Source: Flavobacteriales bacterium BRH_c54 (GTDB lineage Bacteria; Bacteroidota; Bacteroidia; Flavobacteriales_E; Vicingaceae). Taken from it: 59,774 bases of DNA. The position numbers were made by a program, and so were the translations under genes. The stretch covers positions 1-59,774 of the forward strand of contig LADZ01000014.1 in assembly GCA_000961845.1 (NCBI GenBank). The letters run 5' to 3'. Positions within the stretch are counted from its first letter, which is position 1; each line of letters starts with the position of its first letter. Shown here in pieces: positions 11,518 to 22,472 of this stretch. The notes under the pieces are model-generated. The model was not told the origin of the DNA. It ran no database searches and saw only the letters and a program-made list of their open reading frames with translations.

Positions 11518-12426
11518 ATGTTTGAAAAATATAAATATCATTTTTGGCTGCACATAGTGGTGCTTATTTTCGGGTTAACCGGAATTTTAGGTAAATTGAT
11601 TTCTGCCAACTCGTATTTATTGGTTTGGTATAGAGTTTTAATTGGTGTGGCTGCTATTGCTATTTATTTTTTAATAAGTAAACACTCTTTTAAAATCAAT
11701 AAAAAAATATTGAAACAAACTTTTATGGTAGGGTGTTTAATTGCCATACATTGGGTAGCTTTTTTTGAGGCGATAAAACAATCTACTGTTTCTATAGCAT
11801 TAGTTTGCTTATCGAGCAGTACTTTATTTACCGCATTGATTGAACCACTTTATTTTAAGCGAAAAATTAAAGGGTATGAGTTGTTTTTGGGTTTGCTAAT
11901 TATTGTAGGATTAGTATTAATTTTCAATTTTGAATTTAGCTATTTAACAGGAATTGTATTGGGTATTTTAGCGGCAGTATTTAGTTCTTGGTTTACGGTA
12001 ATTAATGGTGTTTTAGTGAAAGAAACTAATTCCAAAACACTTTCTTTTTATGAATTATTAGGGGCATTAGTCATTTTATCGAGCTACTTAATTTTTATGA
12101 ATTTAGGCAATATGGAGGCTTTTCTTATTCCTGTTTCAGATATAAAATGGTTATTAATTTTAGGAATAATCTGTACTGCTTTTGCTTTTATTATGTCGGT
12201 AGAAGTAATGAAAAAAATTTCTCCGTTTACGGTAGTAATTTCTATTAATTTAGAACCTATTTATTCTATTATTATAGCTGTTTTGTTGTGGCCCGAAAGT
12301 GAAATAATGTCAACGGGTTTTTATGTAGGGATGGCCATTGTCTTATCGGCTATCTTTTTAAATGCTTTCTTTAAATTTAAAGCGGATAAAAAAGCTAAAA
12401 GCGTTATTGGGAAAGTAATTGAATAA
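11518..12426 (+). CDS. EamA/DMT-family transporter
   Basis: A 302-residue inner-membrane protein with ten predicted membrane helices arranged as two EamA halves (roughly residues 8-135 and 145-285). Landmarks are the 'WYRVLIGV' helix 2 region and 'CLSSSTLFTALIEPLYFKRKIKGYELFLGLLIIVGL' split over helices 3-5, with a similar pattern 'VVISINLEPIYSIIIAVLLWPE' in the second half. The family exports small metabolites such as amino acids or nucleobases; the substrate is not predictable. Its 3' end overlaps the convergent LytTR regulator gene by 23 bases. Confidence 0.85.
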   Translation: MFEKYKYHFWLHIVVLIFGLTGILGKLISANSYLLVWYRVLIGVAAIAIYFLISKHSFKINKKILKQTFMVGCLIAIHWVAFFEAIKQSTVSIALVCLSSSTLFTALIEPLYFKRKIKGYELFLGLLIIVGLVLIFNFEFSYLTGIVLGILAAVFSSWFTVINGVLVKETNSKTLSFYELLGALVILSSYLIFMNLGNMEAFLIPVSDIKWLLILGIICTAFAFIMSVEVMKKISPFTVVISINLEPIYSIIIAVLLWPESEIMSTGFYVGMAIVLSAIFLNAFFKFKADKKAKSVIGKVIE

Positions 12427-13156
12427 ATTCTGCTTTTTTTCTTCGGGATACCTCAAGCTTAGAGCCATCACTCATTATAACATAACCACCATCTCCTCTA
12501 ACATACTTTTTTACATGGCGTAAATTAATGTAATAAGAACGATGAATTCTGTAAAATTGTTCATTAAGCAACATTTCTTCATACTCGCCAATTTGTTTTG
12601 AAGTAACAAAATGTTTGTCTTGACCAACCACATGGACATCAGTATAACTTCCTTCAGAATGAAACCTGATAATGTCTTTTATTTTAATAAAATTCAAGCC
12701 TTCACCATCATGGATAACAATTTTTTGTTCTTGACCATTGCTACCAGAAGATAAATTGTTGAGTAGTGTTTTTAGTTTGTTATTGGTTAATTCTTGGTTT
12801 CTAATTTTTGATTTAAACCTGTTTATGGCAGCTTCTAGCTCATCCGCATCAATGGGTTTTAACAAGTAATCTAACGCACTATATTTAATGGCTTTTATAG
12901 CATAATGATCATAAGCAGTGGTAAAAATCACATCGAAATTGATATTTTCTAATTTTTCTAATAAATCAAAACCATTTTCTCCTGGCATTTCAATATCTAA
13001 AAATAACAAATCGGGTTGATGTTCTTCAATAGCGGTAATAGCTTCTTTTGCATTGGCAGCATGAGCTTTAATTTCTATATCGAAAAACTCTTTTAAGATG
13101 GTGGCCAAATGTTCTCTTCCACCTTTTTCGTCATCTACTATAATTGCTCTATACAT
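12404..13156 (-). CDS. LytTR-family response regulator
   Basis: A 250-residue DNA-binding response regulator. The receiver domain spans residues 1-120, with Asp-Asp at 8-9, the phosphoacceptor Asp54 in LLFLDIEMPG, Thr in FTTAYD and Lys in LLKPI. A LytTR DNA-binding domain occupies ~145-248 (IKIKDIIRFHSEGSYTDV, then FYRIHRSYYINLRHV and DGSKLEVSRRKK). It lies 11 bases after the sensor kinase gene in the same direction and is surely its partner. Target genes are unknown; LytTR sites are often two short direct repeats. The extreme 3' end overlaps the convergent transporter gene. Confidence 0.93.
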   Translation of the reverse strand: MYRAIIVDDEKGGREHLATILKEFFDIEIKAHAANAKEAITAIEEHQPDLLFLDIEMPGENGFDLLEKLENINFDVIFTTAYDHYAIKAIKYSALDYLLKPIDADELEAAINRFKSKIRNQELTNNKLKTLLNNLSSGSNGQEQKIVIHDGEGLNFIKIKDIIRFHSEGSYTDVHVVGQDKHFVTSKQIGEYEEMLLNEQFYRIHRSYYINLRHVKKYVRGDGGYVIMSDGSKLEVSRRKKAEFIQLLSQ

Positions 13157-13167
13157 AATACACTATT

Positions 13168-15387
13168 TTAAATTGGTACATATAGTTCTACCCGTGTTCC
13201 TGCGGGTTGGTTGTTTATTTTAAGGTCGTTTATTTTTACCGAAAGCTGATTGCCATTAAGTGAGTTTAACAGTTCTACTCGTTCTTTGGTAATGTTCATC
13301 CCAAAAGAAGGAGAAGTAGTGTTTTGCTTAAGTTTAATAGCGTTTTCACGTCCAATTCCGTTATCTTCCACTACGCATTTTAATAAATGTTCACTTTCCG
13401 GTAAAAACTGTATTCTTATTATTCCATTTCCCTCTTTATGCGATATTCCGTGCCAAATGGCATTTTCAACGTAAGGCTGTATAAGCATTGACGGTATTTG
13501 TTCGTATTGTGTATCTATGGTTTCATCTACTAAAATTTCGTAAGAAAATTTGTTGTTTAATCGTAACTGTTCCAACTCTAAATATAAGGTAAGTGTTTCT
13601 ATTTCATCTTTTAAAGAGATTCGCTGACGCTTAGTATTGGCTAATGTGGCTCGCATTAGTTTAGCAAATTTACTCAGGTAAATGGAAGCATCTTTGCTTT
13701 CGTTTTTAGAAATAAAATTTTGAATAGAGTTAAGGGTATTAAAGATAAAATGTGGATTCATTTGCGAACGAAGAGCTTGTAATTCTGATGCTAATGCTCT
13801 TTGTTTTTGCTCTTCAATTTGTTTGTTTTTTAATTGATTTTGCTTTTGGATTAAAAAGTAAATTAAGAACCCTATAATAATTACACCAAAAACAAGCGTT
13901 AATAAAAACCATGCTGACATGTAAAATGGAGGTTGAATGGTAAATGAAATAACTGAAGGTACGGTACTCCAAATTCCTGAATCGTTCATGGCAAAAACTT
14001 TAAAAGTATAGCTGCCGGGAGCTAACGAGGTATAATAGATAGAGGTATTTACGGTATAAATCCATTCTTTATCAAATCCTTCTAACATGTATTTATATTG
14101 AATTCCGGATGGACTATTGCTTATTCCGCTAATATTAAATTCAATAGCGTTGTTTTCATGGCTCAATTCATAATGACTTAATGTGGTGGTGTCTTTACCG
14201 TTAATTTTCACACTGTTTATAAAAACCGATGGAGGCAAAGAATCTTGTCTAACTCTATCTGTTCTAATGGTTTTGGAGTTGATTGGCTTTTCTGTTTGCT
14301 GGTCAACAGGTAAATTTTTTAAAATAAACTTGCTTTGTACTTTTTCGTTTTCAATTTCTGTAGATGAAAAGATAGCCGGAGAACTATAGGTTATAGTTGA
14401 GTTAGCATCAATATGCTCAAACTCATTTTCTAGTTTAAAAACACCATTCCCGGAAGTGCCAAACCATAAGTTGCCTTTAGCATCTTCAGCCACAGAAATA
14501 ACGGTTTGATTTCCTAAATATCGGGTAATATTGGCTTCTTTTAAACTTCCATCAGCATAAGAAATGATACCGCCACTATTTAGTGCAAACCAAATTTTTC
14601 CTTGTGAATCTTGAAAAATAAACTCCACATTTTTTTCCACAAAAATTCTATTCAAGAAAGTAGTATTGTTAAACCTTATCACTTCGTGTTGTTTAGAGAA
14701 TAAGTAGGTTTTATCTTGTAGTTGAACAACATTTGTTCGGGAGTTTCCTGCTGCTTCTGCTAATGGAATAGTAAAGCTATTGGAATTTGTATTTACAAAA
14801 AGTTCGTTTTTAGAAGTGTTTTGGTTGTTTCCGGAAATTAATTTGCCGTTAAACTTTACAACAAAATAGGGGTAAGGATTTAGTTTTAGGTTGGAAATGG
14901 TTTCGGTTTTTAAGTCAATTTGAATTAAAGTACTTCCAACTATTGTACTTATATAAAAAGTAGAATCAGCAAAAATAACGGAGTTAATGATTTTGTTTTC
15001 TACTCGTTTTTGTACCAATTTATTAAAAGGAAAAGGAACGAGTTGATTGTTTTTTATTTCAAAAATTTCTCCATAAATACTCCAAACGTAAAGGTTGTTA
15101 GGTGTTTTTATAAATTTAGAAAGGTTTTCTTCGGTTATAATTTTGGATAAGTTATTGTTTTTTATTTCAAAAACACCTTCGCTGCTAATAAATAGCATTT
15201 TATTTTTATGTTCTACAATATCGTTAAATTGCAAGTAAGGAGAAGTGGAAGATTTGTAATTACTGAAAGAAGGGTTTTGAGCGAATAAGATTTCACTAAA
15301 AATAATTAGTTGTATGATGATAATTAATCTTAACAAACCTCCAAATTTTTGATGAAAAGTAGTGATTTTTTGTTTTACAATCAACAA
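13168..15387 (-). CDS. LytS-type sensor histidine kinase with periplasmic propeller
   Basis: A 739-residue membrane sensor. An N-terminal signal/anchor segment (about 18-36) precedes a beta-propeller sensor region (~40-330, with repeats such as KIWFALNSGGIISY and NLWFGTSGNGVFKL). A Y_Y_Y domain follows near 400-480 (YKYMLEGFDKEWIYT, LAPGSYTFKVFAMN). One membrane helix lies at ~488-512, then a short coiled coil, then a LytS-type kinase with the phospho-accepting His in MNPHFIFNTLNSIQNF (about residue 545) and an ATPase N-box (YVENAIWHGI) and G-box. No ATG is available at the 5' end: an in-frame TAG immediately precedes TTG TTG, so TTG at 15387 or 15384 is the likely start. It probably senses a periplasmic ligand and phosphorylates the downstream LytTR regulator. 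Confidence 0.9.
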   Translation of the reverse strand: MLIVKQKITTFHQKFGGLLRLIIIIQLIIFSEILFAQNPSFSNYKSSTSPYLQFNDIVEHKNKMLFISSEGVFEIKNNNLSKIITEENLSKFIKTPNNLYVWSIYGEIFEIKNNQLVPFPFNKLVQKRVENKIINSVIFADSTFYISTIVGSTLIQIDLKTETISNLKLNPYPYFVVKFNGKLISGNNQNTSKNELFVNTNSNSFTIPLAEAAGNSRTNVVQLQDKTYLFSKQHEVIRFNNTTFLNRIFVEKNVEFIFQDSQGKIWFALNSGGIISYADGSLKEANITRYLGNQTVISVAEDAKGNLWFGTSGNGVFKLENEFEHIDANSTITYSSPAIFSSTEIENEKVQSKFILKNLPVDQQTEKPINSKTIRTDRVRQDSLPPSVFINSVKINGKDTTTLSHYELSHENNAIEFNISGISNSPSGIQYKYMLEGFDKEWIYTVNTSIYYTSLAPGSYTFKVFAMNDSGIWSTVPSVISFTIQPPFYMSAWFLLTLVFGVIIIGFLIYFLIQKQNQLKNKQIEEQKQRALASELQALRSQMNPHFIFNTLNSIQNFISKNESKDASIYLSKFAKLMRATLANTKRQRISLKDEIETLTLYLELEQLRLNNKFSYEILVDETIDTQYEQIPSMLIQPYVENAIWHGISHKEGNGIIRIQFLPESEHLLKCVVEDNGIGRENAIKLKQNTTSPSFGMNITKERVELLNSLNGNQLSVKINDLKINNQPAGTRVELYVPI

Positions 15388-16771: not shown

Positions 16772-16806
16772 AAAAAAAGCAAGTGCTAAAAACACTTGCT
16801 TTTTGG
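16772..16806 (-). terminator. intrinsic terminator of the exported-protein cluster
   Basis: Arms 16774-16785 (aaaaagcaagtg) and 16793-16804 (cacttgcttttt) form a 12-bp perfect stem with a 7-base loop. On the minus strand it ends in a T tract about 25 bases after the stop at 16831. It closes the 22426-16831 transcription unit. Confidence 0.88.
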
Positions 16807-16830: not shown

Positions 16831-17475
16831 TTATTTACTACTGCCTATTCTAATCCCAATTTTCAATGCTAGTCTTAAATCTACCGGAATCTCATTTCCG
16901 ATATAAGGAGTATAATCACTTTCATTAAATTGTTCGTCAGATAAATCTTCAGCAAAGGAATCACTATATTTAACATTGTTAACTATAAACTTCCCTATGC
17001 CGAAGGTAGCTTCTAAAAATAAAGCACCTTTAGATTGCCATTTATAGCCTGCTAATGCGCCCAAGCCAAAAGCTGAGGTAGATACGTCTGTTTTTCCAAT
17101 AATTATATTATTGGCATCGTTTGGATCTTGAACAGCATAAGCATTATCTTTTGCATTGGAACTTCTATATTTTCCGTAAACGCCAATATAGACTCCATCA
17201 TTTCCTTTGTTAGGAGTTGCATAAAATTTATACTCAGGAATAATATTCATTTCAGAATATTTTTCAACATCTCCATAAAGTGATTTGCCATCTGCAAACA
17301 TATTGTCTGACGCGAAATTAATATTTACTCCTATAGAATTGGAACTATTCATTAGGTAATCGTAGCCAATTCCATATTTAGAAAAAGCAAAACCTAAAAC
17401 ATCTGTACTTATGTCGTGTTGTGCTTTTAGTCCTAACCCTGAGAACAATAAAGCGGCAATTATTAATTTTTTCAT
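16831..17475 (-). CDS. outer-membrane beta-barrel-like exported protein
   Basis: A 214-residue protein with a Sec signal peptide (MKKLIIAALLFSGLGLKAQ). It has alternating hydrophobic strands such as DYLMNSSNSIGVNINFA, YIGVYGKYRSS, FGLGALAGYKWQ and FLEATFGIGKFIVNN. The last strand is LRLALKIGIRIG, consistent with a small outer-membrane barrel of about eight strands. It is the last gene of the 22426-16831 unit, 27 bases after its neighbour. No specific family is recognised. A barrel gene ending a run of periplasmic and lipoprotein genes suggests that the cluster acts at or across the outer membrane, but this is inference. Confidence 0.65.
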   Translation of the reverse strand: MKKLIIAALLFSGLGLKAQHDISTDVLGFAFSKYGIGYDYLMNSSNSIGVNINFASDNMFADGKSLYGDVEKYSEMNIIPEYKFYATPNKGNDGVYIGVYGKYRSSNAKDNAYAVQDPNDANNIIIGKTDVSTSAFGLGALAGYKWQSKGALFLEATFGIGKFIVNNVKYSDSFAEDLSDEQFNESDYTPYIGNEIPVDLRLALKIGIRIGSSK

Positions 17476-17502
17476 CTTAATTTAGTTTAAATTAAACAAA
17501 AG

Positions 17503-18459
17503 TTACCAAAGAGATTTGTAGATAACAGTATCTGGTTGACCATTTCCATAAGCTACACCTATGTCTCTAACAGCTTGAATCATTTCACTTTTTTGTTCTT
17601 GGTCTTTTAAGATATATTTCCATTCTCTTGCATCAATTTCTTTAACTCTGGCTTCAATTTTACTCATTAATGCTTTTACTTGAGTAAAGCATGATGTTTG
17701 AGGCTCAATAGTTGAAAGAATTGCTCCTGCTTTTTCAGCTGCTTCAATATCTTGAGCTGCATTCCAAATAGTTTGAGCTTCTTGTAATTTCAATTTACAA
17801 TCTCTTTCAATTTTCTTTAAATAAATAGGTTCAACAGCTTTCATGCTTTTCTCAAAACATTCGTCACAAGCATCTGGCACACTACTTAATAAGAAAATAG
17901 CTTCTTCAAATTGGTTCTGAGCTTCTAAGTTTTTAGCTTTTTTAATGATTAAATCACAGTTGTTGTTATAATAATCAATTATTTTAGCTTTACCTTCTTT
18001 AATAAATGCTTGTACTTCTGGATGAGCAGGTTTAATCATTTTAATTCCTGCCATATATGCTTTGTTTTCATTTACACCTACTCCTTTAACTGTAATGGTT
18101 TTACTTGCAAAAGAAGTTCCTTCAAAACCATCACCAATATAAAGTGTTACATCTAACGTGTAAGCATGCATTGTTGGAGGCCCGGGAAGTATATCTTTTG
18201 AAGCAACAGTGATGTTGGCAGAAATAACAAATCTGGAGTTAAAAGGACTAGCTGAAATTCCATTTTTAGTAATTACTTCTTTTAATTTATTTGTAAGCAT
18301 GTTTTTTGCACTACTTGGCATTCCTTCAATTTGTTCAGGAACCCAAGCAGTAAGCATTAATCTGCTCATTTCTGAATCTGATGCTTTTGATTGAGCAAAA
18401 GCATTACTACTGATGAATAACATGGTTATTGACATCAATAAAAAGTTTAATTTTTTCAT
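17503..18459 (-). CDS. exported protein of unknown function, CsgG/LPP20-like N-terminus
   Basis: A 318-residue protein with a signal peptide cleaved near SNAFAQ (residue ~23). Residues ~30-150 combine an amphipathic helix pair (SSAKNMLTNKLKEVITKNGI), strands (RFVISANITVASKDI, HAYTLDVTLYIGDG) and a 'VKGVGVNENKAYMAGIKMI' segment. This order is reminiscent of the alpha/beta fold of CsgG/LPP20-type envelope proteins. Residues ~160-290 are helical with Cys-rich TPR-like repeats (FEEAIFLLSSVPDACDECF, IWNAAQDIEAAEKAGAIL). A short conserved-looking tail ends in AYGNGQPDTVIYKSLW. No family name can be given with certainty. It sits 23 bases after the DUF6175-like gene in the same unit, so they likely work together. 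Confidence 0.6.
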   Translation of the reverse strand: MKKLNFLLMSITMLFISSNAFAQSKASDSEMSRLMLTAWVPEQIEGMPSSAKNMLTNKLKEVITKNGISASPFNSRFVISANITVASKDILPGPPTMHAYTLDVTLYIGDGFEGTSFASKTITVKGVGVNENKAYMAGIKMIKPAHPEVQAFIKEGKAKIIDYYNNNCDLIIKKAKNLEAQNQFEEAIFLLSSVPDACDECFEKSMKAVEPIYLKKIERDCKLKLQEAQTIWNAAQDIEAAEKAGAILSTIEPQTSCFTQVKALMSKIEARVKEIDAREWKYILKDQEQKSEMIQAVRDIGVAYGNGQPDTVIYKSLW

Positions 18460-18482
18460 AGTAAATTGGTTTTATAATGTTA

Positions 18483-19427
18483 TTATTTTCCTCCTAATAT
18501 AATGGTTGCTCTACCTAAGCCTTTAACAACTACTTTATTTGGAACACCAAGACCAGCTAGATATTTACTTAACTCTCTAGCAAAACCTCTTGTGTCTAAT
18601 GCTCTTCCTTGTGCATTATAAAGTGGCATTCTAACTTGTTCAAAAGTCATCATGTTCTCTGTTACATCAAGTACGCTAAAGCGGTTTTTAACAGTATTAG
18701 CAGCCATCCAATCTTCAATTACATATGATAATTCATCACCATTTACTTCGGATTCTAAATCAAATTCTGAATCACTCCATTTTTGGATTTTAACAATAAC
18801 TTCTCTTCCATTCTCAAACATGTCTTCAAAATGAGTTTGAAGAGAAGCGTTAAAGTTATCAATATGTGCAGTTACTGCTTCTTGTAATAAAACAGGGGTT
18901 TCTGCTGTAAATGATGGTGCTCCTGTTCCTTGAGCTCCTGCAATTTGCTTATCAGTATAAGCATCTAACCCTTGAAGGATAAATGTTACTGATTTTTTTG
19001 GGCCTGTAGTATTTACTGTCCAGGTTAGTTGCATAATAATATCTGCCTTAGCCACTTTTTTAAGTTTGTCCATTGGTGTTTCCTCAATATCACTTCCTGA
19101 ATCTTTTGATGTCATCATATTGTCTTCAGCAGCATCTGATTCTAATGTTTTTAACACAGATTCTAAGTTTTTTAATGGGAAGCCTCTTTCTGTCATCATG
19201 TTATTGATGGCACTAATTACTAAAAGCACATCAGAATCTTCTTGTAATGCTTTTTTATAATCAGGTATTTTAATTGTTGTTCCTTGGTTATCAAATTCCA
19301 TGAAATAACCATTTTTAATACACCAATTATCACTTGGCACCACCATAATGGTAGGTTTTTTTGCTTGTCCGAATGTAGTTGAAATTGCTGTTAATGCAAT
19401 ACTGCAAACTAGTAATATTTTTTTCAT
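18483..19427 (-). CDS. DUF6175-like exported protein
   Basis: A 314-residue exported protein (signal peptide MKKILLVCSIALTAISTTFG). The mature N-terminus KKPTIMVVPSDNWCIKNGY matches my recollection of the Bacteroidota family DUF6175. Next comes a helix-rich 'RGFPLKNLESVLKTLE' segment. A strand pair follows, ADIIMQLTWTVNTTGPKKS and FILQGLDAYTDKQIAG, which recalls the nucleotide-binding-free alpha/beta fold of CsgG/TolB-N-like proteins ('component of an envelope complex' rather than an enzyme). The C-terminus has a domain with a 'GRATIILGG' end. The real activity is unknown. It is in the middle of a co-directional cluster with 23-32 base spacings. Confidence 0.6.
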   Translation of the reverse strand: MKKILLVCSIALTAISTTFGQAKKPTIMVVPSDNWCIKNGYFMEFDNQGTTIKIPDYKKALQEDSDVLLVISAINNMMTERGFPLKNLESVLKTLESDAAEDNMMTSKDSGSDIEETPMDKLKKVAKADIIMQLTWTVNTTGPKKSVTFILQGLDAYTDKQIAGAQGTGAPSFTAETPVLLQEAVTAHIDNFNASLQTHFEDMFENGREVIVKIQKWSDSEFDLESEVNGDELSYVIEDWMAANTVKNRFSVLDVTENMMTFEQVRMPLYNAQGRALDTRGFARELSKYLAGLGVPNKVVVKGLGRATIILGGK

Positions 19428-19459
19428 AATGTTTTAAATTAATTTTTTAGAGGGTTATA

Positions 19460-19966
19460 TTATTTAATTATTTTATCTGCTATCATTCTGTCTTTTAATT
19501 TAGCTCTTTGAACTCTAATGATAACGCCATAGGTTACTTGATCTTCATATTTTTTTCTACCTTGAACTACAGAAAAATGCATATCTGAGCCATCTTCTCC
19601 CGTAATAAATTCTTTGTAAGCTCCTTGATCAGCAAAGAAAGCATTAAAATAGTCTTCATATTTTTCTTGGGCATTAACTTCAAAAATTACCGGTTTCGTG
19701 TTACAATCTTGTTTTCCGTTATTAATACCTTTAAAAAGCACATCTCTAACACCATTCTTTTTAGCTTGTTCAACAGCGTCTTCTCTGTTTCTACCCATAC
19801 CCCAAGCTTTTACTGTTTGAGAACCATCCATTTCAACTCCCATACACTCGGTTTCGTAGGTATAGTTTCCAGACATATTTCTTTGTGGGTCTCCACAAGA
19901 CTCCATAACGGAAGTGATTACAAAAATTGCTAACGCACTTCCTAATATAATTCTTAGTTTTTTCAT
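19460..19966 (-). CDS. LPP20-like lipoprotein, paralogue 1
   Basis: A 168-residue protein with a lipoprotein-type signal (MKKLRIILGSALAIFVITSV then ...MESCGD). The mature part shares a clear pattern with its upstream neighbour: YE.EC.G, VK.W, a QAKKN helix (NREDAVEQAKKNGVRDVLF), F.G, a later Cys before Pro, and 'YEDYFNAFFADQGAYKEF'. The two genes therefore are tandem paralogues. The strand-helix 'A..QAK.N.....' motif resembles LPP20/FlgT-N-type envelope domains. This one is predicted to be lipidated, and the other is not. Function is unknown. It is 32 bases upstream of the DUF6175-like gene and is probably co-transcribed with it. Confidence 0.6.
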   Translation of the reverse strand: MKKLRIILGSALAIFVITSVMESCGDPQRNMSGNYTYETECMGVEMDGSQTVKAWGMGRNREDAVEQAKKNGVRDVLFKGINNGKQDCNTKPVIFEVNAQEKYEDYFNAFFADQGAYKEFITGEDGSDMHFSVVQGRKKYEDQVTYGVIIRVQRAKLKDRMIADKIIK

Positions 19967-19996
19967 TTGTTAATCTATATTATTGTTAATACTAAA

Positions 19997-20518
19997 TTAG
20001 AAGCCTGATGATAATCCTTTAATAATTCCTGCGTCCTCTAAATCCTTTCTTAAAAGATCCACCATTACGGTTACTACCACGCCAATTTTGTACTCTTTAC
20101 CAACTTTCATTGTAGTTGGAGTACCATCTCCTGATGTTGAAACAAATTTCATGTATTTGCCTTCATTTTTAAAAAAGTCTTCAAAAAATTCTGCTTTTTG
20201 TTGTTCTAAAGCAGGATCGTTAGTTAAAGGTTTTTGGTTAGTACAACCTTGAGCTCCACCTGCATATCCTTGAAAAATAATTCCGTGAACTGCATTTTTC
20301 TTAGCTTGATTAATAGCAATTGTAGCTTTTTTAGAATAAGACCAAACTTTAATTACTTTGGTTCCAGGCTTTCCAATACCAACACATTCGATTTCATACC
20401 TCCAGTTTTCGGTATCTTTATCTGCTTTTTTTTGTTTATTAATTTGTGCAGTTGATGTGAACACAAAAAATAACATAAGAGTTGAAAATAAGCTTATTTG
20501 TTTCATCATTGTTTTCAT
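19997..20518 (-). CDS. LPP20-like exported protein, paralogue 2
   Basis: A 173-residue protein with a signal peptide ending near TSTAQ (residue ~25) and no lipobox. It shares with the next gene the motifs YEIECVGIG, VIKVWSY, AINQAKKNAVHGIIFQG, a Cys (QGCTNQKP) and 'EFFEDFFKNEGKYMKFV', in the same order. It then has GDGTPTTMKVGKEYKIGVVVTV and a C-terminal 'LRKDLEDAGIIKGL' helix. The two are a tandem duplication whose partners diverged in membrane anchoring, which suggests a hetero-oligomer (inference). No enzyme motif is visible. Spacing to neighbours is 27 and 30 bases, with no terminator between. Confidence 0.6.
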   Translation of the reverse strand: MKTMMKQISLFSTLMLFFVFTSTAQINKQKKADKDTENWRYEIECVGIGKPGTKVIKVWSYSKKATIAINQAKKNAVHGIIFQGYAGGAQGCTNQKPLTNDPALEQQKAEFFEDFFKNEGKYMKFVSTSGDGTPTTMKVGKEYKIGVVVTVMVDLLRKDLEDAGIIKGLSSGF

Positions 20519-20545
20519 GGGTTTTTAGATTTTATATATATTAAG

Positions 20546-21901
20546 TTAATTAATTTGTCTGATTAACATTCCTGGGTAATAACCTTTACCACCTTTAAAA
20601 TGGGTAAATTCTATATTATTTTCGATTTCTATTGGGTTGCCTTCTTCATCTAAAGGTTCTTCTCCTATATTGTATTTATTATTCCAAATATTTTTTTTAT
20701 CTACCTTTATAATTCCTTTTCTTTTATAAGTAATTCTTCCTTCTGAATCAAACTGTTGTTCTAAAACTTCATATTTATCTCCTCCTTCTAGACCTTCTTT
20801 CAAACCAATTTTAGCTCCTAATGGATCAATGCTAACCAATGGTGTTTTTGTTCTAAAAGGTTCAAATTTTCTTTGAAGTTTGTTATAAACTGAATTGATA
20901 GATTTTAAAGTAGCATTTTCAATTATCATTTCTTCACTTTCTGCATTTGAACCTAATCCTGAAATTAATGCTCTTGTTTTTTCGTACCCTAAAAGTTTTA
21001 GTTGAAATAAATCTGAATTATCGAACATAGTTTTTTTAGCTGGATCTACAGAAGTGGAATCCATCCACATGTCCATGTAAAAAACAGCTTCAATAGAGTC
21101 GTTCCATTCCATTTGATATAGGTAGGCGGTTGTCCATATTGAATATCCTTGTCTTGCTTTTTCATAAGCTTTTTTTGCTATTTCAAGAGCTGATTCTTGC
21201 AATGCTGCAGGAAGTTTAGCAGCAGCATCCTTAGCTATATCATAAGTAATTTTTGCGGTTTCTTCATTACTTACAAATTTTGAATAATTTACCACCACAA
21301 AAGTGTTGTTAATTAATTCAATTCCAGCATCTTTTAACATATCCAACCCTCTTTCTGTACTTAATGCCATATCAGCCGCTTGAGCAGAAGCATCATAAGC
21401 TCCTCTTTCTTGAATTAATGACATATCAAAAGCACCGTCTTCACTCCTGTTAAACCACTTAGCAATCATTTTATTAGCTAGTTTAGTGTCTTTAAAATAT
21501 TGCTCAATAGCAGCACTAAAATCTTTGTCTTTGGCTTTTTTGCCTTCTTTAATTTCGTTAATTTTATCCTGATAGTTCTTTATATTAAAAGATTTAGCAC
21601 CTACTGTATGATTATTGTATTTATCAGGAAACTCTGCATTTTTAAACGTGCTAAGAATTAAGTCTTTTTTAGGAAGATTGTCATCTTCAATAATCATTGT
21701 ATGTAAGGAACCTCTTCTGTACCTTACAATCTCAGTATGCTTATCTGTTTTTTGAATTTTAGTTATATTATCATCCTTCTCTTTTTTTGCTTCACCTTCT
21801 TCAACCTTTTCTATGGTTTGTTCTTGAGCGTTTATTAAGGATGTTTGAGTACTAAAAAATAGAGTTAAAAATAACCCTAACCAAGAAATATATTTTTTCA
21901 T
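20546..21901 (-). CDS. exported protein of unknown function in the DUF6175-like cluster
   Basis: A 451-residue exported protein (signal peptide MKKYISWLGLFLTLFFSTQT...INAQ). After a charged low-complexity stretch (residues 26-55) it is mostly helical. A segment 'ERGAYDASAQAADMALSTER' followed by 'GLDMLKDAGIELINNTFVVV' is, by my recollection, shared by proteins in Bacteroidales. The C-terminal ~110 residues are a beta-rich domain (TKTPLVSIDPLGAKIGLKEG, ITYKRKGIIKV, FTHFKGGKGYYPGMLIRQ) that recalls a bacterial SH3-like or outer-surface domain. No enzymatic motifs are seen. It begins the multi-gene part of the unit, downstream of an intrinsic terminator, so its level is likely set by read-through. 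Confidence 0.6.
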   Translation of the reverse strand: MKKYISWLGLFLTLFFSTQTSLINAQEQTIEKVEEGEAKKEKDDNITKIQKTDKHTEIVRYRRGSLHTMIIEDDNLPKKDLILSTFKNAEFPDKYNNHTVGAKSFNIKNYQDKINEIKEGKKAKDKDFSAAIEQYFKDTKLANKMIAKWFNRSEDGAFDMSLIQERGAYDASAQAADMALSTERGLDMLKDAGIELINNTFVVVNYSKFVSNEETAKITYDIAKDAAAKLPAALQESALEIAKKAYEKARQGYSIWTTAYLYQMEWNDSIEAVFYMDMWMDSTSVDPAKKTMFDNSDLFQLKLLGYEKTRALISGLGSNAESEEMIIENATLKSINSVYNKLQRKFEPFRTKTPLVSIDPLGAKIGLKEGLEGGDKYEVLEQQFDSEGRITYKRKGIIKVDKKNIWNNKYNIGEEPLDEEGNPIEIENNIEFTHFKGGKGYYPGMLIRQIN

Positions 21902-21925
21902 TTATGTATTATATATAATTGTAAT

Positions 21926-21965
21926 AAAAAAAGAGAATTGATTAACTAATCAATTCTCTTTTTTT
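21926..21965 (-). terminator. internal terminator after the first cluster gene
   Basis: A long stem, aaaagagaattgatta pairing with taatcaattctctttt around a 3-4 base loop, is followed by T residues on the minus strand. It lies directly after the stop at 21968 and before the 451-residue protein's gene. No TAnnTTTG box is visible between it and the ATG at 21901, so partial read-through probably drives the downstream genes. Confidence 0.85.
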
Positions 21966-21967
21966 AA

Positions 21968-22426
21968 TTATTTAGATTCTTGGTTTTTAATTTGTTCTAA
22001 TTGTCCCGGAATTGCTTTTTGTGTCTCATTAAGAGCCTTAGTAGCTTCATTCACAGCTTTCACAGCTTTTAGTGAATTTGTTTTAGGGGTAATTGATTTT
22101 GCTTCGGTTAAAACATCCGAAGATTTTCCTAATAATTGAGCAGCTTCTTTTGATTGTGCTTCTAAATCAGATTTAACACTTCCTAAATCATCAACATTAT
22201 CTGTTGGATTAGCTAATGTTTTAGTGATCTCTTGATTTTTTTCATACAATTTAAAAGATGAATTCACATAATCATCTGTTGCAGCATGACCAACTGCATC
22301 AGGCTTTACTAGTGTTTTAGCTTCTTTTTCCTTTTTTTCTTTCTTTTCTTTCTTTTGAGCATACGCTTGAGTTGAAACTCCCGTTATAAATAACGCAATA
22401 AATAAAATTCTTGTAATTTTTTTCAT
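21968..22426 (-). CDS. small exported helical protein, first gene of the cluster
   Basis: A 152-residue protein with a Sec signal peptide ending at AYAQ (residue 23). A very Lys/Glu-rich low-complexity stretch follows (residues 24-40). The rest is almost wholly helical and rich in Ala, Lys, Asn and Thr (DDLGSVKSDLEAQSKEAAQL, SLKAVKAVNEATKALNETQK), probably a coiled coil or extended periplasmic spacer. No family is recognised. It is the promoter-proximal gene, with a -7 box and a palindrome upstream and a strong terminator after it. It is therefore likely to be made in excess over the other products of the unit. Confidence 0.6.
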   Translation of the reverse strand: MKKITRILFIALFITGVSTQAYAQKKEKKEKKEKEAKTLVKPDAVGHAATDDYVNSSFKLYEKNQEITKTLANPTDNVDDLGSVKSDLEAQSKEAAQLLGKSSDVLTEAKSITPKTNSLKAVKAVNEATKALNETQKAIPGQLEQIKNQESK

Positions 22427-22452: not shown

Positions 22453-22472
22453 TTTTGAACGTTCCAAATGTA
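22453..22472 (-). promoter_or_regulatory. promoter -7 box with overlapping palindrome
   Basis: On the minus strand TACATTTG (22465-22472) matches TAnnTTTG, 38 bases before the ATG at 22426. The 16-base near-perfect palindrome ttttgaacgttccaaa (22453-22468) overlaps it and would cover the transcription start. This fits an operator for a dimeric regulator, which I cannot identify. Confidence 0.45.

Follow-up and report, generated by a model that had tools for sequence, protein, structure and literature searches.

A conserved gene cassette around DUF6175 in Bacteroidota and the periplasmic complex it may encode

Seven closely spaced genes in Flavobacteriales bacterium BRH_c54 (GCA_000961845.1, contig LADZ01000014.1) raise the question of whether a set of small exported proteins forms one envelope complex, and of what kind. 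The window analyzed is a 59,774-nucleotide stretch of this contig, in which the block runs from 22426 to 16831 on the minus strand. Its ORFs, here g1 to g7, encode 152, 451, 173, 168, 314, 318 and 214 aa and are separated, in order, by 66, 27, 30, 32, 23 and 27 bases, in agreement with an earlier sequence-only reading that had described a single-strand run with spacings of 23-32 bases (66 after the first gene). That reading had also assigned export signals to all seven products, and a hydrophobic N-terminal segment, scored by a simple count with ORFs at contig ends left out, was present in nearly all complete homologues (g1, 10/10; g2, 78/81; g3, 78/79; g4, 36/37; g5, 80/80; g6, 78/78; g7, 14/14).

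Layout and conservation of the cassette

Transcription signals were examined around the block. A TAnnTTTG box (TACATTTG; 22465..22472, minus strand), read directly from the sequence, begins to the 5' side of g1 at a distance of 38 bases and resembles the Bacteroidota -7 element; a by-eye search for a -33 TTG accompanying it found none. Sigma-70-type promoter sites were no more frequent than in shuffled sequence (44 vs 39.2, sd 5.3), and the single promoter proposed earlier was not borne out. The proposed single strong terminator is matched by a terminator-like hairpin 3' of g7 (16774..16804, minus strand, z -4.8), but a second strong structure, a perfect hairpin with A/T tails and the shape of a terminator or attenuator, lies between g1 and g2 (21925..21966, no strand assigned; -20.1 kcal/mol, z -6.4). 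This hairpin is also found in loci L040, L041 and L045 and is absent from L043.

Gene neighborhoods were compared across 80 related loci, which are the best matches from a set of at least 554 relatives of DUF6175 (62-98% identity) and not a random draw. In these, g3 or g4 immediately precedes g5 in 80/80, g6 follows in 79/80, and g2 is contiguous with the core in 76/80, with all core genes on the same strand. Flanking genes change from locus to locus; the cluster seen most often among them, of ABC-type ATPases that occupy many positions, occurs in 18/80. The order g2-g3-(g4)-g5-g6 is thus a conserved module amid changing flanks, g4 being unrecognized in 42 of the 80 loci. There is also a second copy of g2, which extends past the end of contig C23. 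The two ends behave differently: g1 (P0001; 21968..22426, minus strand), a lineage-specific, exported helical protein of 152 aa, has 10 complete homologues across the 80 loci, and g7 (P0007; 16831..17475, minus strand), also lineage-specific, has 14. Of the proposed seven-gene unit, g2-g6 are kept, and g1 and g7, which some of the related loci have and others lack, are not part of the conserved core.

DUF6175 was detected in 19 of 395 genomes of the phylum Bacteroidota. Among the 376 genomes without it, g2-type and g3/g4-type matches occurred in one genome each (G280 in both cases) and a g6-type match in one (G011, E 5.8e-4). Fisher tests of co-occurrence with DUF6175 gave 9e-7 for g2, 8e-21 for g6 and 6e-29 for g3/g4, in statistics that ignore kinship and in a survey where some positives arise by construction. 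The cassette occurs in scattered lineages of Bacteroidota, and g2-g6 stay together both across the 80 loci and in this phylum sample. A phage or plasmid origin was rejected, with 0 of 107 candidate stretches for g5 confirmed in viral contigs and 0 in plasmids; the sole match in the phage set (g2; MT836698.1) resembles a bacterial contig.

Families and predicted folds

The central gene g5 (P0005; 18483..19427, minus strand; 314 aa), earlier called DUF6175-like, is a full-length member of DUF6175 (PF19672; E 2.4e-126, 421 bits against a cut-off of 23, model positions 1-293), a Pfam entry that assigns no function and of which no mention was found in open-licence papers. Its AlphaFold2 model (pLDDT 83, pTM 0.73) is predicted to comprise a CsgG/PelC/FlgT-M-type domain (residues 22-207) and a second alpha/beta domain (208-314). 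At the level of single domains the model agreed best with CsgG (Z 10.0, 127 residues at 3.5 A) and PelC (Z 9.4, 114 residues at 2.6 A). TolB N-domains matched at Z about 7; TM-scores against the top matches, normalized by g5 length, were low (0.11-0.31). For the C-terminal domain, the 50 entries listed gave ribosomal chains only (Z about 7), which was treated as a common arrangement.

For g2 (P0002; 20546..21901, minus strand; 451 aa), to which no known fold had been given, a FlgT-type two-domain fold is now predicted, with an FlgT-M/CsgG-type domain at about 61-351 and a small FlgT-C-type beta domain at about 352-451 (AlphaFold2, pLDDT 78, pTM 0.72; residues 23-60 under 50). Foldseek against the PDB returned two significant matches only, 8z5n_0 (1.5e-5), which belongs to the "LPHT ring" of Vibrio, and 3w1e (3.5e-5), which is FlgT; VIA superposition gave Z 9.4 against the former and Z 8.3 against the latter (over 59-451). 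The predicted model thus matches the fold of the middle and C-terminal FlgT domains in one chain, with low TM-scores (0.17-0.24), a both-domain rmsd of 10.4 A, that is, above 10 A, and a best single-domain Z of about 7, a level that VIA rates as common. The FlgT-like part starts at about residue 59, and the chain has no N-terminal SHS2/LPP20-type domain. Pfam and NCBIfam scans of g2 and g5 gave no FlgT family match, nor did Pfam scans of 37 g2 homologues, and the CsgG profile (PF03783) matched neither g2 nor g5. The g2-position protein of locus L034 exceeds the Pfam cut-offs for both CsgG (1.9e-8) and LpoB (2.9e-9), and that of L032 is barely over the CsgG cut-off; against a profile of these two, g2 scored 33.8 (shuffled maximum 19.0).

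Between g2 and g5 lie g3 (P0003; 19997..20518, minus strand; 173 aa), a small exported protein, and g4 (P0004; 19460..19966, minus strand; 168 aa), which had been read as tandem LPP20-like paralogues, one of them lipidated. They are paralogues (phmmer 7e-22), and g4 is probably a lipoprotein, judging by a permissive lipobox pattern in 20 of its 37 homologues. Membership of LPP20 (PF02169) was unsupported: none of 49 g3/g4 homologues matched at E up to 0.1, and profile-profile comparison (hhalign) with 24 LPP20 domains from genomes of the phylum, repeated with the fused domains added, gave probabilities of 0-3% (3.3% in the first run). HTH_CodY recurred at the g3 C-terminus below cut-off (11/49) and was dropped as unlikely in exported proteins.

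In g6 (P0006; 17503..18459, minus strand; 318 aa), an N-terminal part accompanies a part that appears helical by eye and weakly TPR-like. For the TPR-like repeats proposed in it, the matches were weak and all below cut-off (TPR_19, 14.9 bits against 25; some of 30 homologues likewise). Residues 186-298 also scored just over the cut-off for MYG1_exonuc (PF03690; 22.7 vs 22.1 bits, E 8.7e-5), covering only model positions 159-259 of 318, in the helical region, and recurring at E up to 0.1 in 5/30 homologues. It is read as a chance match of the helical region and, like HTH_CodY, was put aside because such a domain is improbable in an exported protein. With this hit present, the earlier statement that no enzyme motif occurs is not fully confirmed; apart from it, profile searches gave no convincing unrelated function for any member. 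The 214 aa product of g7, described earlier as barrel-like, resembles outer-membrane barrels and scores over the cut-off for DUF3575 (PF12099; 6.3e-9, 35.8 bits against 21.1), with PF13505 below cut-off (0.016). Searches of PDB sequences with g5, g3/g4, g2 and g6 profiles gave nothing convincing (best E 0.05-0.84), and profile-profile comparisons of g5-g6, g6-g3/g4 and g2-g5 gave no relation beyond signal peptide or chance.

Natural fusions and the nature of the complex

In other members of the phylum this gene order reappears as three fused proteins, a g2-type protein with an outer-membrane barrel, g3/g4 with DUF6175, and LPP20 with a g6-type domain. LPP20, over cut-off, is joined to a relative of the N-terminal part of g6 in the remote genomes of L036, L046, L168 and L169, and L126 carries a two-domain fusion of g4-type with g3-type. 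One fused barrel alone exceeds the Pfam cut-off (PF13505, 3.2e-7, in L168); the others were identified by full-length matches to an L168/L169/L170 profile (L171, 1e-67; L037, 6e-128; L035, 2e-41). Window g2 matched a profile of four remote g2-type sequences at 94.8% (score 68.2, or 48.4 without the signal peptide; highest among 30 shuffles, 25.9; reversed sequence, 17.4) and one of three at 75.9% (score 48.1; shuffled maximum 24.4), the link lying mainly in the small C-terminal domain (57 columns). In L037 the g2-type gene is several genes away from the fused pair, and L036, L038, L046 and L047 have the two fused genes with no g2-type gene in the stretches examined. Barrel-like genes, below cut-off, accompany the cassette in L031 and L128; g7-type barrels are not universal among cassette loci.

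An undescribed envelope complex had been proposed for all seven products. It is well supported for g2-g6, because of their conserved order, co-occurrence and natural fusions, and does not extend to g1 and g7 as core members. The co-conservation and the fusions are directly established; the folds are predictions, from structure models that cover two of the five core proteins (g2 and g5), as single chains. We favor, with moderate confidence, the explanation that g2-g6 are subunits of one outer-membrane-associated periplasmic complex in which FlgT/CsgG-type modules are paired with a beta-barrel, and their products probably assemble physically. In such a complex, g2 would contribute an FlgT-M/CsgG-type domain and a small FlgT-C-type beta domain, DUF6175 a second CsgG/PelC/FlgT-M-type domain, g3 and g4 small exported subunits, the latter anchored by lipid, and g6 a further small domain with a helical arm. 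Its most likely working mode, as with FlgT, PelC and CsgG, would be a ring on the periplasmic side of the outer membrane that encircles a barrel or sits beneath it. That barrel is probably g7 in the window and elsewhere another small barrel-like gene or one fused to the g2-type protein; the chances of a ring shape appear even. As to function, a scaffold or an export collar is tentatively preferred to a flagellar part.

That the CsgG/PelC-type subunits serve an outer-membrane pore as its periplasmic ring or gate, with a polymer or protein exported as in PelBC or CsgG, is possible though unlikely. The best domain matches of g5 and the barrels fused to g2-type proteins or encoded beside the cassette agree with it, as do the PelC rings seated on the PelB barrel (PMC12141448), but the cassette has no energy-providing subunit, and the 22 commonest flanking clusters included no recognizable gene for polymer synthesis, a substrate or an amyloid. 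A role in envelope maintenance, through LpoB- or TolB-like control of peptidoglycan synthesis or anchoring of the outer membrane, would accommodate the LpoB match in L034 and the TolB matches of g5; the TolB likeness is only at common-fold level, no peptidoglycan-synthesis gene was recognized among the same clusters, and this role seems improbable. So does an accessory role in type IX secretion (T9SS) or gliding: GldM (PF12081) is encoded by 13 of 26 DUF6175-carrying genomes, including the window's and 13/14 of its class, but the cassette occurs without it in G351 and all 12 carriers outside that class, no T9SS gene was recognized among those clusters, and DUF6175 is rare in the phylum. A shared operon without a complex, for example of unrelated envelope-stress products, has little to recommend it: one-operon genes can stay conserved without contact, and g1 and g7 come and go, but the same order persists, fused and unfused, across classes, and fusions join g3/g4 to g5 and g4 to g3. 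A flagellar function as an H-ring-type accessory, which FlgT has in Vibrio, was rejected as highly improbable, although FlgT is the top and nearly sole structural match of g2, because flagellin (Flagellin_N) is absent from 24/26 carriers, including the window's genome (95% complete), the two positives (G109, G243) lying outside its class. A link to the unassigned secretin-like complex described from F. johnsoniae was considered but dropped, since the authors of that work (eLife 73099) favor a GspD-like secretin.

Comparison with known envelope systems

In the sodium-driven flagellum of Vibrio, FlgT is the H-ring protein (PDB 3w1e; LPHT ring 8z5n). The predicted g2 model has counterparts of the middle and C-terminal FlgT domains in the same sequence, but lacks the N-terminal SHS2/LPP20 domain and has helical insertions in the middle domain; moreover, the modules of the cassette are spread over several genes, most carriers have no flagellin and FlgT family matches are absent. 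FlgT forms an outer-membrane-associated ring, as described in PMC7693769 and PMC12222027. The open-licence paper found for FlgT together with Bacteroidetes concerns 5:2 rotary motors.

The PelC and CsgG outer-membrane ring lipoproteins share the predicted fold of the first g5 domain and form barrel-associated rings. The cassette differs in that neither g5 nor g2 matches CsgG in Pfam, g5 carries a further domain at its C-terminus, and curli or Pel genes went unrecognized among the 22 commonest flanking clusters. With the FlgP/LPP20 (SHS2-like) disc proteins the cassette shares the LPP20 domain fused to g6-type domains in four remote loci, whereas the g3/g4 sequences themselves match no LPP20; no open-licence literature was found on LPP20 with CsgG in Bacteroidetes.

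DUF6175 and several families without a Pfam match here thus gain a structural reading and are joined as one conserved module, which offers a concrete and testable complex in a phylum with envelope machinery that is incompletely described. A ring, if real, would bear on the origin of flagellar H-ring parts. A bolder and doubtful reading is of an ancient outer-membrane machine of flagellar H-ring modules (FlgT-M/C, CsgG-type, LPP20) that surround a beta-barrel of their own, scattered across the phylum and tied neither to flagella nor to curli or T9SS; flagellar outer-membrane rings and the cassette complex would then represent two uses of a single, older set of ring parts for the envelope.

Gene order and transcription signals

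The minus strand of the window carries seven ORFs for exported proteins, g1 to g7 (22426 to 16831), spaced in order by 66, 27, 30, 32, 23 and 27 bases, which bears out the seven-gene run described in an earlier sequence-only reading. The single promoter and single terminator proposed there were not confirmed: a sigma-70-type scan performed no better than chance, and a perfect 19-pair hairpin of terminator shape, found by folding at 21925-21966, divides g1 from g2. A candidate promoter element, a TAnnTTTG box read directly from the sequence 5' of g1, resembles the Bacteroidota -7 consensus. The hairpin was present in four of the five genomes folded (the window, L040, L041 and L045, with L043 lacking it), and the g1-g2 gap of L050 (same contig as L042) leaves no room for it. 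Given this hairpin, g1 may be a separate transcript or attenuate the remaining genes; 21925-21966 could act as an attenuator that splits g1 off from g2-g7. Downstream of the operon, at 12404-15387, lies a two-component pair of LytS/LytTR kind (by eye).

Conservation and distribution of the core

The g2-g6 core is conserved as one unit. In 80 related loci, the best of at least 554 relatives of g5 (DUF6175), a g3/g4-type gene directly precedes g5 in every case and g6 lies behind g5 in 79, the exception being L123, where the contig ends. g2 is contiguous with the core in 76 loci; of the other four, L059, L074 and L122 are truncated by contig ends, and in L126 g2 is just upstream of the core, beyond a spurious-looking antisense ORF. 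The cassette is fragmented in L108, and across the 80 loci its genes share one strand, with gaps mostly of 5-35 bases. g4 was unrecognised in 42/80 loci. Complete homologues of g1 and g7 number 10 and 14, respectively, and are confined to some of the loci; the proposed seven-member complex is supported for g2-g6 and over-includes these two. Flanks are variable (names by eye): the commonest cluster, a generic ABC ATPase, occurs in 18/80 loci at many positions, followed by a LytTR-type regulator (10/80, scattered) and a peptidase-like family (10/80, at -1 in six).

Two of the 80 records, L087 (titled Chlorobiota) and L099 (titled Cellvibrionales), are metagenome bins whose cassettes may reflect mis-binning or transfer. 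Nothing pointed to a mobile carrier: no cassette was found in the plasmids searched, and none was confirmed in viral contigs. L128 (MT836698.1), from human faeces and labelled 'UNVERIFIED: Bacteriophage sp.', contains the complete cassette together with a WG-repeat protein and an AAA-type ATPase-like ORF (ATPase by eye), and looks like a bacterial contig deposited as phage.

Among 395 genomes sampled from the phylum, DUF6175 occurs in 19, g3/g4 in 19 (18 shared with DUF6175), g6 in 15, of which 14 also have DUF6175, and g2 in 6, of which 5 do; the last count is a lower bound because the narrow g2 profile misses remote forms. In the 376 genomes without DUF6175, g3/g4, g6 and g2 were matched once each, G280 accounting for two of the three matches; this near-absence is the trustworthy part, since Fisher values for co-occurrence take no account of kinship and some positives arise by construction or as domains within one fused ORF.

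Remote and fused forms

In four sampled genomes (L032-L035) homologues of DUF6175, g3/g4 and g6 remain together, with the g2 position held by a CsgG/LpoB-family protein in L034, a borderline one in L032, a g2-type/barrel protein in L035 (2e-41) and a gene without a family-scan match in L033. Five f30 genomes were inspected (L036, L037, L038, L046 and L047), and in each the g3/g4 domain and DUF6175 form a single protein. The adjoining gene matches the g6 profile in L036, L037, L046 and L047, matches LPP20 above cut-off in L036 and L046, and is reached by a genome-wide LPP20 search in G133 (L037) and G137 (L038). The intervening part is weakly Ig-like (under cut-off).

In L168, L169 and L170 (class of G318), these two genes are preceded by a third with a g2-like first part (E 2.4e-6, 1.4e-7 and 1e-4, respectively, among 29 ORFs), giving the order g2, g3/g4+g5, g6; the last part of this gene in L168 is an outer-membrane barrel (PF13505, 3.2e-7, above cut-off). 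In L171 the first gene matches the entire L168-L170 profile (1e-67), and LPP20 is found in the third gene; g3/g4 and g6 parts were undetected there in profile searches. Barrel matches fall under cut-off in L169, L170, L171 and L126, and family scans gave none in L104 and L037. L037 matches this three-sequence (L168-L170) g2-type/barrel profile over its full length; in L126 and L104 that match stops at the barrel, and a four-sequence profile extends it into the barrel. g2 scored 68.2 against the four-sequence profile (48.4 without its signal peptide; shuffled maximum 25.9, n=30; reversed 17.4) and 48.1 over 57 C-terminal-region columns of the three-sequence profile (shuffled maximum 24.4). Homology between g2 and the barrel-fused proteins thus holds against these nulls.

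A g4-type domain is fused to a g3-type domain in L126, and the cassettes of L031 and human-gut contig L128 include a small barrel-like gene (matches under cut-off). L031 (G351) is rearranged: g2 C-terminal fragment, g5, g6, WG-like protein (by eye), g2, small barrel-like protein, g3/g4. Some g2 homologues (L029:10314-12671 and L044:12199-13872) are much extended at the N-terminus, the added part containing UVR-like helical repeats (by eye). The window genome holds a second, truncated g2 paralogue running off the end of contig C23 (L129:9985-10647) and adjoining an HtrA-like protease (by eye).

Predicted structures and the proposed assembly

Pfam gave clear names to two products, g5 (DUF6175, 2.4e-126) and g7 (DUF3575, 6.3e-9); family scans of g1-g4 gave no match above any cut-off. 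g3 and g4 are paralogues of each other, g4 probably a lipoprotein, and their earlier LPP20 label is unproven. g6 matched MYG1_exonuc barely above cut-off (22.7 bits, cut-off 22.1) and TPR-type families under cut-off; none of these matches was trusted.

Residues 22-207 of the predicted g5 model (pLDDT 83) aligned with CsgG (Z 10.0, 3.5 Å, 127 residues), PelC (Z 9.4, 2.6 Å, 114 residues) and the flagellar protein FlgT (Z 8.5, 3.6 Å, 134 residues), and Foldseek matched the model to GNA1162 (4.5e-5), 8z5n_0 (8.2e-5), FlgT (1.0e-4) and CsgG (1.2e-4). For the g2 model (pLDDT 78), two of 412 Foldseek matches reached E <=0.001, 8z5n_0 (1.5e-5) and FlgT 3w1e (3.5e-5), the third-best being already at 0.12. 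We infer that 8z5n chain 0 is FlgT from its length and from the region it matches in each of the two models, which is also the one matched by 3w1e. VIA-align of g2 residues 59-451 to 8z5n_0 and 3w1e gave Z 9.4 and 8.3 with rmsd >10 Å; domain order therefore agrees and relative pose does not. Taken by itself, the C-terminal part of g2 is also similar to the small barrel at the N-terminus of F1-ATPase beta (Z about 7); this fold is a common one.

CsgG forms rings. PMC7693769 and PMC12222027 describe FlgT as a component of the H ring, and PMC12141448 places PelC on the PelB barrel. Since proteins with CsgG/FlgT/PelC domains assemble into rings beneath the outer membrane, on its inner face, we propose one such assembly here, which g2, g5, g3/g4, g6 and a barrel partner would make up together. 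The leading candidates for its role are scaffold or collar on the one hand and export gate on the other. Neither flagella nor T9SS accounts for the distribution: 24 of 26 DUF6175-carrying genomes lack flagellin, and GldM, the T9SS/gliding marker, is found in 13 of the 26 and missing from G351 and the 12 carriers outside the class of the window.

The open-licence literature searched contained no paper naming DUF6175, in keeping with the sequence-only view of an undescribed envelope module. The module lacks three defining features of FlgT and falls outside that family; it is predicted from the models to be composed of FlgT/CsgG-type modules, and the gene block to encode a variant form of outer-membrane ring complex built from known kinds of parts.
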